The translations under genes were made by a program, and so were the position numbers. From contig JAILHQ010000030.1 of assembly GCA_024695725.1 (NCBI GenBank), positions 1 through 36,299 on the forward strand: a stretch of DNA of 36,299 nucleotides, written 5' to 3'. This DNA comes from Cyanobacteria bacterium RUI128. Its GTDB lineage: Bacteria > Cyanobacteriota > Vampirovibrionia > Gastranaerophilales > Gastranaerophilaceae. Under the pieces are notes generated by a model that had not been told where the DNA came from, did not search any database, and saw only the letters and a list, made by a program, of their open reading frames with translations. Positions 1,653-31,870 of this stretch are shown one piece after another. How positions within the stretch are numbered: the first letter of the stretch is position 1; every line of letters begins with the position of its first letter.

Positions 1653-2408
1653 TTGACTGTAAAAATAGCGGTAACGGGGAAGAGCGGAAGTGGCAAGACA
1701 ACTGTAACAAAATCAATGTTGCATATTTTGCGCGAATATTTTCCGGAAAAAAGTATTTTGGTATTAGATAACGATTTGTCATCCGAATTTGGGCACAGTT
1801 ACGGGCTTGATATCAGAAATACAATCTATGGTATAAGAAGCGGAAAACACGAATATAAGACTGGTATTCCGCAACATATGACAAAGTCCGAGTATGTTGA
1901 ATGGGCTATGGAAGACATTATTGTATCCTTAGATGATTATACAGATTTGATTGTTTCGTGGTTTACCGGCTCTAAGGATTGCAGATGTCCTATAACTCAA
2001 CAGATAAATGATGCGTTGTATAAGATTATAAACAGGTACGACTTTGTTATATTTGACTGTGAGTTTGATTTAAAATATCTGAATCAGTTGGTTGATACAG
2101 ATATTGATTTGACTTTAATTGTGGCACTCCCTTATGAAGAATCTGTTTTGCTTGCAAAGCGTATAGAGGAATTTTCTGCAAAATATGCAGCAGGCGGGCA
2201 AATGGGCGTTGTTATTAACCGTGTTAGAAATGAACGTATGAATAATGTGTTTAATATGCTCAAGTGTCACGAATTGGATGTGTTAGGTTGTATACCGTTT
2301 GATGAACAACTTTCTGAAAATCCTTTAGAAAGGAAGTCTGCAGTTGTGGTTGATTCTATTAAACAGTTTTATTCTCGTTTGAATTTACCGCAGGAGGGAT
2401 TGGTATAA
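1653..2408 (+). CDS. CooC-like deviant Walker A P-loop ATPase
   Basis: A 251-residue MinD/ParA-class ATPase. The P-loop TGKSGSGKTT (residues 8-17) has the extra signature lysine K10 of deviant Walker A proteins. C110-R-C112 followed by P matches in position the CxC that binds metal at the dimer interface of CooC, the nickel-insertion ATPase of carbon monoxide dehydrogenase. Also CooC-like are YDFVIFDCE (Walker B region), MGVVINRVRNE and the late LGCIPFDEQLSE. The TTG start at 1653 is chosen because AAAGGGAG sits about nine bases before it and the P-loop begins at once. It ends one base before folD and carries that gene's AGGAGGG ribosome site in its last codons. Fold and CooC resemblance are clear. 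Metal cargo and client enzyme are unknown; no CODH gene is in the window. Confidence 0.75.
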   Translation: MTVKIAVTGKSGSGKTTVTKSMLHILREYFPEKSILVLDNDLSSEFGHSYGLDIRNTIYGIRSGKHEYKTGIPQHMTKSEYVEWAMEDIIVSLDDYTDLIVSWFTGSKDCRCPITQQINDALYKIINRYDFVIFDCEFDLKYLNQLVDTDIDLTLIVALPYEESVLLAKRIEEFSAKYAAGGQMGVVINRVRNERMNNVFNMLKCHELDVLGCIPFDEQLSENPLERKSAVVVDSIKQFYSRLNLPQEGLV

Positions 2409-2409
2409 T

Positions 2410-3312
2410 ATGATATTAGATGGCAAGTTAGTTTCCGGAATTATATTAGATAAGATTAAGGAAGTCGTTGACAAGTTGGATAAAAAACCACATTTGGCTG
2501 TTATTCTTGTCGGTAACGATCCTCCAAGCCAGGTTTATGTAAGAAATAAGAAAAAAACTGCCGAAAAGATCGGGATAAAATCTACTGTAATTGAATTACC
2601 GGAAGATACGGAAGAACAAGTCGTAATTGATAATATTAAAGCTCTTAATGAGGATGAAGATGTTTCGGCTATACTCGTTCAGATGCCTCTGCCAAAGCAC
2701 ATTAACCAATACAATATAATTTCGGCAATTGACCCTAAAAAAGATGTTGATTGTTTTACTCCTGAAAATGTCGGCAGACTTGCTATCGGCATGAAACCGT
2801 ATTTTTACCCTGTTACACCGCACGGGGTAATAATGCTTCTTGATTATTATAAAGTCCCGATTGAAGGTAAACATGTGGTTGTAATAGGACGTTCTAATAT
2901 AGTCGGTAAACCAATGGCACAGATGCTATTAAAGCGGAATGCAACTGTAACTATATGCCATTCAAAAACGGTTGACCTTGAAGAAAAAATAAAAGCCGCA
3001 GACATAGTAATCTCTGCGGCAGGAAAAAAAATTGTAAGATGTAAGATGGTTAAATATAAATCTGTGTTCGTTGACGTCGGCATATCAAGAGATACCAACG
3101 GCAAATTAACCGGCGATCTTATCTGGATTCCTGAGTATAAGAATTTTAAAGAAGTATCAGAATTTTTTGAGTACGTCTCTCCTGTTCCGGGCGGTGTGGG
3201 CCCGATGACTATTGCCTCTCTTATGCTAAATACATTAGCTTCCTCCGAGGATGTGGGTGTCTTGCGCCTCTTCGGAGACTGTGGACTTGAGTCCTTCTTC
3301 TTGGGCTTTTAA
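2410..3312 (+). CDS. folD: Bifunctional methylenetetrahydrofolate dehydrogenase / cyclohydrolase
   Basis: Interconverts 5,10-methylene-, methenyl- and 10-formyl-tetrahydrofolate in cytosolic one-carbon metabolism. The catalytic Y43-x3-K47 is in SQVYVRNKKK. VQMPLPKH and DVDCFTPENVG line the folate site, GRSNIVGKPMA is the Rossmann-type dinucleotide loop, and PVPGGVGPMTIASLMLNT is the family's C-terminal block. The protein normally ends soon after that block; here about 23 more residues follow, read from DNA that on the other strand encodes the end of the helical protein at 3235-3729. The ATG has a strong AGGAGGG site and follows the CooC-like gene by one base, so the two are almost certainly co-translated. 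No good terminator is visible downstream. The gene assignment is secure. Confidence 0.95.
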   Translation: MILDGKLVSGIILDKIKEVVDKLDKKPHLAVILVGNDPPSQVYVRNKKKTAEKIGIKSTVIELPEDTEEQVVIDNIKALNEDEDVSAILVQMPLPKHINQYNIISAIDPKKDVDCFTPENVGRLAIGMKPYFYPVTPHGVIMLLDYYKVPIEGKHVVVIGRSNIVGKPMAQMLLKRNATVTICHSKTVDLEEKIKAADIVISAAGKKIVRCKMVKYKSVFVDVGISRDTNGKLTGDLIWIPEYKNFKEVSEFFEYVSPVPGGVGPMTIASLMLNTLASSEDVGVLRLFGDCGLESFFLGF

Positions 3313-3729
3313 GGCTTCCAGAAGCGCGTCGTATGTTGCAACCATTGTACCGTATTCCATATCAAGATCCGTGTATTCTTCTAATAATTTTGGATCATAC
3401 TTCGGTACCTTCCTACTTGCAAATTTTGATGCAAATTTGTCAACAGACATGCTCCATTCTGCGGACGCAGCACGCCCTTGGTTACCTTTTTTCCCGTCTT
3501 GTTTTGCAAGAATGACATTACCATTCAACTTCAGCTCTTTGCTTCCGTCGTTCCAAGCTTCCTCTGCTGAATCATACTGAGAACCCCATTTTTCTTCAGC
3601 CTTAGTCTGCTCGCCGAGTTTCTTTTCCATGGCCGTAGCAAGATTATTCCACCTAGTGTCCTGTTGTTCACAATAGGTGCGCTGTGCTTTTATGGACATG
3701 TATTGCGCCAATAAGCCTGCGACTGCCAT
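3235..3729 (-). CDS. Small helical, coiled-coil-like protein of unknown function
   Basis: A 164-residue protein rich in Glu, Lys and Ala. It has a short hydrophobic N-terminus (MAVAGLLAQYM), then long predicted helices around residues 18-60 and 115-155, with a Trp-containing linker. An AAAGAGG ribosome site precedes the ATG, and a fair promoter with an inverted repeat lies at 3765-3801. The start resembles that of the helical protein at 24039: a G-L/F-L stretch, a Tyr, then an Arg- and Gln-rich helix, so the two may be distant paralogs. Its last 25 codons overlap the end of folD on the opposite strand. No family or enzyme motif is recognised; a structural or secreted role is only a guess. Confidence 0.65.
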   Translation of the reverse strand: MAVAGLLAQYMSIKAQRTYCEQQDTRWNNLATAMEKKLGEQTKAEEKWGSQYDSAEEAWNDGSKELKLNGNVILAKQDGKKGNQGRAASAEWSMSVDKFASKFASRKVPKYDPKLLEEYTDLDMEYGTMVATYDALLEALKAQEEGLKSTVSEEAQDTHILGGS

Positions 3730-30284: not shown

Positions 30285-30626
30285 TTAAGCGTTTATTCCG
30301 CCTGCTGATACGCTGCTAACAGCAGATACAGCTGATGTTGATGTTGATGAAGATGCCGGTAACGTAGCTTCCTGTGCAGCTTGTACATTAGGGAAACCGT
30401 ATGATTGAGCCATCTTCTCAGTAGATTGCTGAAGAGCAATTAAATCTTCTACAGTACCGTTTGTTCTTTCAATAGGATTTTCAACACCCGGTTCATTAAG
30501 AAGCGGCTTAGCCATACGTGTATCGTCATATTCATCAATAGATGTATTATTTGTCTCTTCTGCCTTAACATTCTCCGCAGGGGCTGGGGCAGTATATGCT
30601 CCAAAATTGATTGCATCAATTTTCAT
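30285..30626 (-). CDS. Small low-complexity protein with N-terminal INFGAY motif
   Basis: A 113-residue protein that starts MKIDAINFGAY, continues with an Ala-, Pro- and Glu-rich stretch, has a central acidic part with VEDLIALQQSTEKMAQ as the only clear helix, and ends in a Ser-, Thr-, Ala- and Val-rich tail. There is no signal peptide, membrane helix or known domain. The N-terminal I-x-F-G resembles F-x-G motifs in two other proteins of this window. An AAGGAG ribosome site, an ATACTTT/TATATAG promoter-like element about 30 bases upstream and its own terminator support expression as a single gene. Function is unknown. Confidence 0.65.
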   Translation of the reverse strand: MKIDAINFGAYTAPAPAENVKAEETNNTSIDEYDDTRMAKPLLNEPGVENPIERTNGTVEDLIALQQSTEKMAQSYGFPNVQAAQEATLPASSSTSTSAVSAVSSVSAGGINA

Positions 30627-30809
30627 TATATCAATCTCCTTAGTATTTCTATATAAAAAGTATTACATATTTTATAAAACATATCAAGATATTTTTTGCT
30701 AGTAATTGTAATAATTTGTAATAGCTGTTATCAGAGTTTTTTAACGTAAGTTCTGTCGAATTAAATCAGCACCAATATTACAAAATGTAAAAATTTTGAA
30801 TAACCATGC

Positions 30810-30837
30810 TTCATGATTTCAGAAATTGTAGTAGAAT
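30810..30837 (+). promoter_or_regulatory. Candidate promoter of the small RNA
   Basis: TTCATG (30810-30815), a 16-base spacer and TAGAAT (30832-30837). The -10 box is good and the -35 box partial. Transcription would start near 30844. Confidence 0.4.
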
Positions 30838-30843
30838 TATTGT

Positions 30844-30907
30844 ATCAACTATCCCAAATCTCCTCCCAAGATTATGAAATACTAGCTGCGACACGCAGCT
30901 TTTTTTC
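30844..30907 (+). ncRNA. Candidate small regulatory RNA with loop-exposed anti-Shine-Dalgarno
   Basis: Between the promoter-like pair and the terminator lie about 64 bases with no protein frame. AATC (30857-30860) can pair with GATT (30870-30873), leaving TCCTCCCAA in a nine-base loop. The CTCCTCCC core is complementary to ribosome-binding sites such as GGAGG. A second hairpin is the terminator. Size, CU-rich unpaired core and two-hairpin form recall cyanobacterial Yfr1, whose conserved core is ACUCCUCACAC. Homology is not shown; this is a resemblance in a group thought to be related to Cyanobacteria. Confidence 0.45.
30884..30907 (+). terminator. Plus-strand terminator with no protein gene before it
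   Basis: AGCTGCG (30884-30890) pairs perfectly with CGCAGCT (30894-30900) over ACA, followed by TTTTTTTC. The minus-strand side has no T run, so it does not serve nagZ, which stops at 30911. It implies a plus-strand transcript. Confidence 0.85.
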
Positions 30908-30910
30908 TTG

Positions 30911-31870
30911 CTATATTATACCGTACTTGGTTTTGAGGGATATGATTTTTGAATAAGATTCTTCGATTTTATTGCGAAGATTTAAATCATTTTGGGCAAG
31001 TTTTAAGACATCTTCTATTGTTTTGATTGTTTCATCTGATGCATCACGATAAATAAACATATTTACCCCTGCTTTTATGCCCATTACGCACGCTTCAGTC
31101 ATGCCAAATTTTTTGACTCCGTTCATGAACATGTCATCAGACATGACAATTCCTGAAAATTTCAAGGTATTTGTCAGGTAGTTTATACAATTATGGCTTA
31201 ATGATGTCGGAATGACATCTGTATCAAAACATTTACAGTGAAGGTGTGCCACCATAACAACATCAGCACCTGATAAAATTGCGTGTTTAAATGGATATAT
31301 ATGCATATTGACCAACTCTTCGAACGACATATCTATCTCAGGCAGCTCTTTATGTGAATCTTTGTCTGCATCCCCATGCCCCGGGAAATGCTTTATTACG
31401 GGTATTATTCCATGTTTTGTGAATTCGGCAGAAGTAATATCATACCCTTTACATACATCGTCAGGGGATGATGAAAAAGCACGTTCGCCAATAATAGGAT
31501 TATTCGGATTTGTATTAACATCCAAGCATGGCGCAAAGTTCATGTTCAGTCCAAAACTGTTTAGTTCTGTTGCGATTTTTGAAGTCTGTCTTTTTAGAAA
31601 TTCTTCGCCCTTTTGAAACGCAAACATTGGCGACATGTATCGTTCATGAAGATTTTCAGTTCTTTCAACCCTGCCACCTTCTTGATCAATTGATAAAAAA
31701 GGCGGAGTTTTTGATTTTGACTTTATGTCGTTAATCAAATCGGTAAACTGTTTTTCTGATTTTATATCTCTTGTAAAGAAAATTACGCCGCCAACCCCCT
31801 GATTAAGAGCATAATCAAGGTGTTTCCCCGTACCTGTTATAAACATTTGGAATAACTTCTCTTTAAGCAT
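30911..31870 (-). CDS. nagZ: Family 3 glycoside hydrolase, NagZ-type beta-N-acetylhexosaminidase
   Basis: Removes N-acetylglucosamine from peptidoglycan fragments. The 319-residue single-domain GH3 protein has IDQEGGRVER (D62 in the sugar site), the NagZ signature KHFPGHGDADKDSH (residues 160-173, with the catalytic Asp-His pair D171 and H173), and the nucleophile Asp in IVMSDDMFM (about 245). There is no signal peptide, so it acts in the cytosol, as in cell-wall recycling. It lies 52 bases after the 459-residue membrane protein gene on the same strand and may be transcribed with it. The family and signature are clear. Confidence 0.9.
   Translation of the reverse strand: MLKEKLFQMFITGTGKHLDYALNQGVGGVIFFTRDIKSEKQFTDLINDIKSKSKTPPFLSIDQEGGRVERTENLHERYMSPMFAFQKGEEFLKRQTSKIATELNSFGLNMNFAPCLDVNTNPNNPIIGERAFSSSPDDVCKGYDITSAEFTKHGIIPVIKHFPGHGDADKDSHKELPEIDMSFEELVNMHIYPFKHAILSGADVVMVAHLHCKCFDTDVIPTSLSHNCINYLTNTLKFSGIVMSDDMFMNGVKKFGMTEACVMGIKAGVNMFIYRDASDETIKTIEDVLKLAQNDLNLRNKIEESYSKIISLKTKYGII

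Follow-up and report, generated by a model that had tools for sequence, protein, structure and literature searches.

A small RNA gene, here termed RNA A, which carries a near-invariant stretch complementary to Shine-Dalgarno (SD) ribosome-binding sites, is predicted to stand alone, to be new to Rfam and to be common to most sampled genomes of the bacterial order Gastranaerophilales. We describe it from a 36,299-nucleotide stretch of Cyanobacteria bacterium RUI128 (the window, i.e. the whole stretch analysed; GC content 0.36). We regard a conserved small RNA gene at this spot as nearly certain, because the core of the RNA recurs across the order without control matches and because a relative (locus L001) encodes a near-identical RNA. 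In one sub-clade a second RNA, RNA B, bears the complement of this core. The genes for both RNAs and their conservation are established at the level of genome sequence. As a broader reading we tentatively suggest that they could form a two-RNA switch of Gastranaerophilales, in which an order-wide anti-SD RNA faces a sub-clade antagonist acting by toehold displacement, in place of Yfr1 and Yfr2, and whose active RNA has been captured by at least one phage.

In the window, RNA A is predicted on the plus strand from 30844 to 30906 (63 nt), as judged from fold and conservation; its start near 30844 is placed through a -10-like site and the conserved spacing, and its end lies in a T-run. It is flanked by two minus-strand genes, one for a small protein (30285-30626) and nagZ, encoding NagZ (30911-31870). 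A first-pass annotation of this DNA had proposed a plus-strand small RNA gene with roughly these ends, and this is borne out both by the order-wide conservation and by the fold of positions 30843-30910 (-13.8 kcal/mol, z -4.6; none of 200 shuffles was equally good). It had also noted a terminator that no plus-strand gene precedes. We confirm the intrinsic terminator (30884-30906, plus), whose arms AGCTGCG (30884-30890) and CGCAGCT (30894-30900) enclose an ACA loop and are followed by T residues to 30906, and both neighbouring genes indeed run on the minus strand. No Rfam match was found for RNA A in the window. Scans of the window returned terminator-like sites at chance level (7 versus 6.5 expected) and 32 promoter-like sites versus 31.5 expected. 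The promoter-like pair TTCATG/TAGAAT (30810-30837), from which the annotation had the RNA start, is present in the DNA and its CATG recurs near -35 in relatives, but the pair is absent from the sites listed by this chance-level scan. Coding functions were considered and rejected on either strand: a 47-codon open reading frame overlapping RNA A (30813-30956) is disfavoured since the core is kept as nucleotides, and the string ATG AAA TAC TAG within RNA A is seen in the window and L001 alone among 33 aligned rows; a minus-strand gene using GGGAGGAG could start only at TTG and would meet a stop two codons later, and the orientation of the T-run is that of the plus strand.

Alignment and an order-wide pattern search define the near-invariant core as the 17-mer CCCAAATCTCCTCCCAA (30853-30869, plus), within which the anti-SD stretch CTCCTCCC can be read at 30860-30867 (plus). 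Allowing at most one mismatch, the 17-mer was recovered in 229 of 286 Gastranaerophilales genomes and its reversed pattern in none, showing that the CU-rich core, whose loss in relatives would have spoken against the RNA by the first-pass annotation, is indeed conserved; the terminator is kept as well (see below). About 70 loci from these 229 genomes were inspected, at least one of which (L096 in genome G257) is B-like and not RNA A. In alignment A1 the sequence AAATCTCCTCCCAA is identical in 33 of 33 rows, an invariance over 14 nt, and so is the core as found in the window, AUCUCCUCCCAA. Of the 57 genomes of the order without a pattern match, a profile built from 22 rows brought in 7 (E<=1.5e-6); six of these have variant loci (L276-L281) with the core shortened to CTCCTCC and then A, and the seventh is G263 (locus L282). 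Pattern and profile together place RNA A in approximately 235 of 286 genomes, and its absence from the remainder is indistinguishable from missing sequence because many assemblies are in many contigs. The RNA of L001 differs from that of the window at two terminator-loop bases only, while the NagZ proteins are 66% identical. Among the eight nearest NagZ loci, a word search found CTCCTCCC adjoining nagZ in L001 alone; a blast search of the corresponding eight genomes with a 73-base stretch located it in G002, G003, G005 and G006, in each case on another contig, a 20-base match in G008 proved to be RNA A on inspection, and G004 and G007 gave no match to the stretch.

To describe the anatomy of the RNA we collected 59 distinct RNAs, with the start set 14 nt before ATCTCC and identical RNAs counted once; the set omits L039 and L276 (near contig end) and the B-type loci L107, L108, L110 and L112, and the B-like L096 was retained both here and in a set of 76 slices, counting as a miss in each. 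With the start fixed by this rule the lengths range from 59 to 90 nt. Of the 59 RNAs, 58 have a 3' hairpin, and an exact stem of at least 5 bp precedes the T-run in 74 of the 76 slices. The arms of these stems begin at 15 different positions, and a few of the stems may be chance pairs near the T-run. The two slices without such a stem are L096, a locus other than RNA A, and L113, where GCTGC/GCAGC can be seen by eye one base farther from the T-run. The predicted terminator stem therefore drifts while staying paired, and its failure to be recovered by RNAalifold on alignment A3 is explained by MAFFT misaligning the drifting stems. The exposure of the anti-SD stretch that the annotation had envisaged holds up: CUCCUCC has a mean unpaired probability of 0.75 over the 59 RNAs. 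Upstream, the window has a -10-like TAGAAT (30832-30837, plus), corresponding to TAnnnT in 57 of 59 upstream sequences versus 44 in shuffles, a signal that is weak alone. In the -35 region lies TTCATGATTT (30810-30819, plus), which includes TTCATG (30810-30815); 43 of the 59 upstream sequences have CATG there, compared with a mean of 3.7 and a maximum of 9 in shuffles. Farther upstream, a TGTAA box within TTACAAAATGTAAAAATTTT (30786-30790, plus) is shared by relatives, being found in 58 of 59 sequences (shuffled mean 8.3, maximum 17).

The first-pass annotation had drawn most of the anti-SD stretch in a nine-base loop closed by AATC/GATT. Such a weak hairpin, AATC(TCCTCCCAA)GATT (30857-30873, plus; AATC at 30857-30860, GATT at 30870-30873), is a genuine minimum-free-energy prediction for the window, but it finds no support as a conserved element. 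Of its five pairs, three are constant over 33 rows and the other two change only by losing the pairing (in 2 and 4 rows), and compensatory changes are absent from the whole AAUCU/AGAUU helix around the core; the C-G pair is lost in the aligned loci L014, L058, L059 and L065, and also in L060, L061, L063 and L064. We accordingly rejected the loop as a defining element. A helix that lacks covariation and is broken in several lineages argues that what is conserved is a core, mostly single-stranded, set on a terminator, with no defined loop.

Examination of the genomic context of 14 loci and the window revealed no gene common to all of them. Of 30 flanking proteins, 17 could be named with Pfam and 13 gave no match; the families include dehydroquinase (at three loci), aspartokinase, RelA/SpoT, ABC transporter, radical SAM, S1, glycerol-phosphate acyltransferase, SRP54, TPR, histidine kinase, SecG, DUF2229, FtsZ, DnaK and NagZ. 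This lack of a shared neighbour suggests that RNA A, if it acts by pairing, acts in trans. As separate observations, boxes resembling TTTTGTAAANTTTT, as found upstream of RNA A, precede several small proteins with an N-terminal NFG/SFG-like motif in genome G051 (L196-L275; 15 sites, with 9 for the reversed control), and the small protein encoded at 30285-30626 beside RNA A looks like these NFG/SFG-motif proteins.

We envisage RNA A as a small RNA that stands alone and acts in trans in most of the order; its largely unpaired 5' half would expose CUCCUCC(C), and its 3' half is, by conservation, the intrinsic terminator. The exposed stretch could pair with AGGAG or GGAGGAG ribosome-binding sites and thereby make it harder for ribosomes to load onto a set of mRNAs. 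We lean towards such trans pairing at ribosome sites as the main action of RNA A. In 1.58 Mb of G051, AGGAG precedes 260 of 1541 open reading frames and the reversed word 97 (first ATG as start, no SD score), and of 79 eight-base complements of the core, 38 have their first base between -15 and -6 relative to the first-ATG start; RNA A can thus form 6-9 base pairs with common ribosome sites. A start choice that rewards SD sequences inflates these counts to 312 of 1567 and 49 of 80 respectively, and starts of this kind underlie the complement counts, RNAduplex ranking and AGGAGA-TTT count given below for G051. The target prediction against ribosome sites advocated by the first-pass annotation has a divided outcome: complements do cluster at SD positions, as is expected of any anti-SD sequence, but show no excess over shuffled controls. 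In G051, 47 genes are preceded by complements of at least 9 bases (reversed 22; shuffled mean 34, maximum 59) and 13 by complements of at least 10 bases (reversed 2; shuffled mean 9.4, maximum 18); those of 12 or more bases outside the RNA A gene are few. An RNAduplex ranking over 1567 open reading frames could not separate RNA A from its shuffled or reversed versions, TTT after AGGAGA is not enriched (10 versus 8.2 expected), and neither the small NFG-type protein genes nor pilin-like genes are enriched as targets.

The word GGGAGGAGA is rare before ATG (43 matches in 98 genomes; reversed control 18), and its matches led to two individual candidates, a ribbon-helix-helix gene and an aminotransferase. 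Complementarity at the former spans 7-13 bases in the eight orthologues nearest to it and 5-8 bases in a further 21 (29 loci read out of 30 fetched, from more than 150 matches listed); with ordinary SD length in most orthologues inspected it was rejected as a conserved target and is a lead, not proof. The aminotransferase, with 5-10 bases in 30 of 30 loci and at least 7 in 9 of them, does not go beyond SD strength and was rejected likewise. Hence, from the G051 complements set against shuffled controls, the gene classes and these two candidates, no gene-specific mRNA target emerged. The ribbon-helix-helix-like protein itself (61 aa; L336-L365) usually has two or three copies in a genome (range one to four), and a very constant GGAGGA/AGGAG ribosome site stands before the ATG of its gene in 29 loci.

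RNA B came to light through second 17-mer matches in the opposite sense in some genomes. It carries GGGAGGAGAUUUGG, the complement of the RNA A core, together with its own terminator, and is laid out as a free GGGAGGA toehold followed by a GAUUUGG-loop-CCAAAUC hairpin. A loose pattern matched 33 of 286 genomes (reversed control 6 matches), and 21 of them have the hairpin ending in CCAAATC, with an extra T in G223; these 21 are taken to encode RNA B. Among 20 inspected loci there are 11 core and loop versions and 7 terminator stem starts; the terminator folds below -10 kcal/mol in 19 of them, the remaining one (L150) being a shortened slice. Among the 17-mer matches listed, at least 20 of the 21 RNA B genomes also show the core elsewhere, on another contig (G219 falls beyond that listing), and the RNA A genes of three of them were inspected (L106, L109 and L111). 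For the two same-genome pairs computed, the predicted A:B duplexes reach -32.2 (G177) and -37.2 kcal/mol (G089), with an invented SD-like oligonucleotide at -12.0; L109 lies outside the non-redundant set. Five RNA B and four RNA A loci gave no Rfam match at E<=0.5, which for RNA B bears on kinship with Yfr2 only if the library includes a Yfr2 model. The next long open reading frame downstream of RNA B is convergent in L107, L108, L110 and L096, and in L112 a 159-codon frame follows in the same direction, where a leader role for RNA B is conceivable. On the strength of complementarity and predicted energy, RNA B would titrate RNA A in the sub-clade as a sponge, much as Yfr2 does with Yfr1, and we consider it likely that it antagonizes RNA A there. 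Separately, in L096 (G257; approximately 1690-1760, reverse strand) another complement of the RNA A core stands before a terminator-like hairpin, and a 17-mer search found no RNA A in that genome.

The core also has eight exact matches in viral contigs. One of these (L308) is a provirus in which the host RNA A gene is followed by a tRNA-Arg gene (2049-2124, ARAGORN) and then by an integrase gene on the minus strand (2212-3465; region 1803-3465). Another, the 57-kb phage contig L310 (IMGVR_UViG_3300005965_000006), has a core copy at 782-798 on the minus strand, with 31 bases identical to RNA A of G008 (L014) and its own hairpin and T-run, directly behind a 182-codon open reading frame that resembles phage families of unknown function. 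This putative phage-borne RNA A is one case only: no such hairpin could be seen by eye in the 70 bases inspected for each of the other six matches, a looser pattern found no further RNA A in viral contigs, blastn found none in plasmid or phage records, and a search for phage relatives of L310 returned only itself.

From shape and a shared CUCCUC, the first-pass annotation had likened the RNA to Yfr1, the family defined in passages of PMC2190773. The covariance-model search it proposed found no match to RF01116 in 30627-30930 even at E<=10. Across 194 genomes of the phylum, RF01116 (E<=0.1) is found in none of the 85 also in our order draw versus 87 of the 109 others (80 above the cut-off), the latter being the remaining genomes of this draw, a few of which may belong to the order. 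On the same genomes the exact RNA A 16-mer is found in 77 of 85 and 1 of 109, and the photosynthetic reaction centre family Photo_RC (PF00124) in 0 of 85 and 81 of 109. The lone 16-mer among the 109, in G310, which has psbA and Yfr1, is a probable chance match; apart from it no genome in this draw has both RNA A and Yfr1. In the 22 of 109 genomes negative for Yfr1, the RNA A profile gave weak, mostly partial matches (best E 0.013). Abundant expression is one of the marks of Yfr1. Further, Yfr1 has the ultraconserved ACUCCUCACAC, whereas RNA A has UCUCCUCCCAA and lacks ACUCCUCACAC; Yfr1 consists of two stem-loops with 16-20 unpaired nucleotides between them, whereas RNA A has no predicted 5' stem-loop, only about 9 nt preceding its core at the predicted start; and in most lineages Yfr1 lies between guaB upstream and trxA downstream, whereas the neighbours of RNA A vary and include no such family among the 30 flanking proteins, 17 of them named by Pfam. 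Of the marks tested only size and terminator agree, and we therefore rejected membership in Yfr1, the model being unmatched in the window and in the 85 order genomes and the core, the 5' hairpin and the guaB/trxA neighbours being absent. The two hairpins claimed in common with Yfr1 can be had only by counting the weak AATC/GATT helix, where there is no covariation.

A reading close to this one, that RNA A is a strongly diverged Yfr1 orthologue handed down from an ancestor that Gastranaerophilales shared with photosynthetic cyanobacteria, draws on the common phylum, the near-complementary occurrence of the two RNAs over the 194 genomes, the shared CUCCUC, size and terminator, and a sub-clade partner RNA that carries the complement as Yfr2 does. 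We nevertheless judge it quite unlikely, as there is no RF01116 match, no guaB or trxA adjoins the annotated loci, the core differs outside CUCCUC, the 5' stem-loop is lacking, and no convincing intermediate appeared in the other 22 genomes of the phylum without Yfr1 (partial matches, best E 0.013). Supposing instead that there is no functional RNA, and that a chance terminator adjoins a DNA-level element, would fit the chance-level counts of the window scans, but it is scarcely credible against the order-wide conservation, the stem that drifts with pairing kept, and the defined strand.

The near-invariance of the core over 14-18 nt exceeds what SD pairing needs, making a protein or other partner conceivable. 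The core might then be a protein binding site and RNA A a protein sponge, with SD complementarity incidental, as would suit the 14 nt invariant in all 33 rows, the want of a significant mRNA target set, and the failure to find Hfq in 20 genomes of the order (0 of 20; the control was positive in 5 of 14 named genomes). Against this, the complement of the core is retained in the RNA B of 21 genomes, a sign of base pairing, and known anti-SD small RNAs typically have single-stranded stretches rich in C and U; we hold the protein sponge to be unlikely. RNA B, for its part, might be a target, a leader or an unrelated antisense RNA, leaving the order-wide role of RNA A something else, a reading that accords with its occurrence in 21 of 286 genomes versus an order-wide RNA A and with the same-direction frame in L112. 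Since RNA B has its own terminator, faces convergent long frames in L107, L108, L110 and L096, and shows with RNA A the strongest predicted pairing seen, we think this very unlikely. The pairing of RNA A with ribosome sites, and its titration by RNA B in the sub-clade, is the reading we carry forward.

Searches with 13-base words of the core and with clade names found, among the matches listed, no earlier description of such an RNA, subscription literature being largely outside their reach, and the regulatory RNAs of this non-photosynthetic sister lineage of cyanobacteria appear little explored. RNA A, so conserved and having no Rfam match, can be annotated at once in a few hundred genomes and offers a test case for anti-SD regulation where Hfq was not found, while RNAs A and B would provide a natural pair of small RNA and antagonist whose presence differs between relatives.

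Among known systems Yfr1 remains the closest functional analogue, and in this sense the likeness first noted stands, strengthened by the partner RNA B, although family membership does not. According to passages of PMC6974561, Yfr1 acts as a repressor at the ribosome site of most mRNAs tested, and its pairing sites lie mainly at translation starts; it is bound by Yfr2 in the account given in parts of PMC6778093. Yfr1 and RNA A share the phylum, a near-invariant core with CUCCUC, a lineage-wide and mostly single-copy occurrence, and a comparable size (54-69 nt against a predicted 63 nt) with a terminator at the end; RNA A, however, occurs in Gastranaerophilales, where Yfr1 was not found. Each has a complementary partner, Yfr2 and, in one sub-clade, RNA B. 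Both partners carry a sequence nearly complementary to the core of the respective small RNA, but RNA B was seen only in that sub-clade and its complement is exact over approximately 14-16 nt in most cases. RNAs A and B would thus be a Yfr1/Yfr2-like arrangement by analogy, with no demonstrable kinship. The Yfr10/Syr5-type RNAs, as portrayed in sections of PMC6778093, resemble RNA A in that a hairpin loop can be drawn around their anti-SD core and in little conservation of synteny or structure outside this core; they carry the Yfr1 motif, unlike RNA A, and are set beside it by description alone. Beyond the phylum, passages of PMC10746234 describe the alpha-proteobacterial NfeR1 as an Hfq-independent RNA that silences ntrB through a CCUCCUCCC motif, and RNAs with CCUCCUCCC also figure in parts of PMC3927594. 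The anti-SD CUCCUCCC of RNA A is part of the CCUCCUCCC of these alpha-r14 or 'cuckoo' RNAs (NfeR1, SmelA075), and the Hfq independence of NfeR1 has a counterpart in the 20 Gastranaerophilales genomes in which Hfq was not found. Base pairing at translation initiation regions also marks this group; complements of RNA A cluster at SD positions, with no excess over shuffled controls. The cuckoo RNAs are alpha-proteobacterial and have three or four hairpins with the motif in each unpaired loop, whereas RNA A has one CUCCUCCC per RNA, preceded by U, with no supported hairpin around it. With a single motif and a surrounding helix without covariation, we do not place RNA A in the alpha-r14/cuckoo group.
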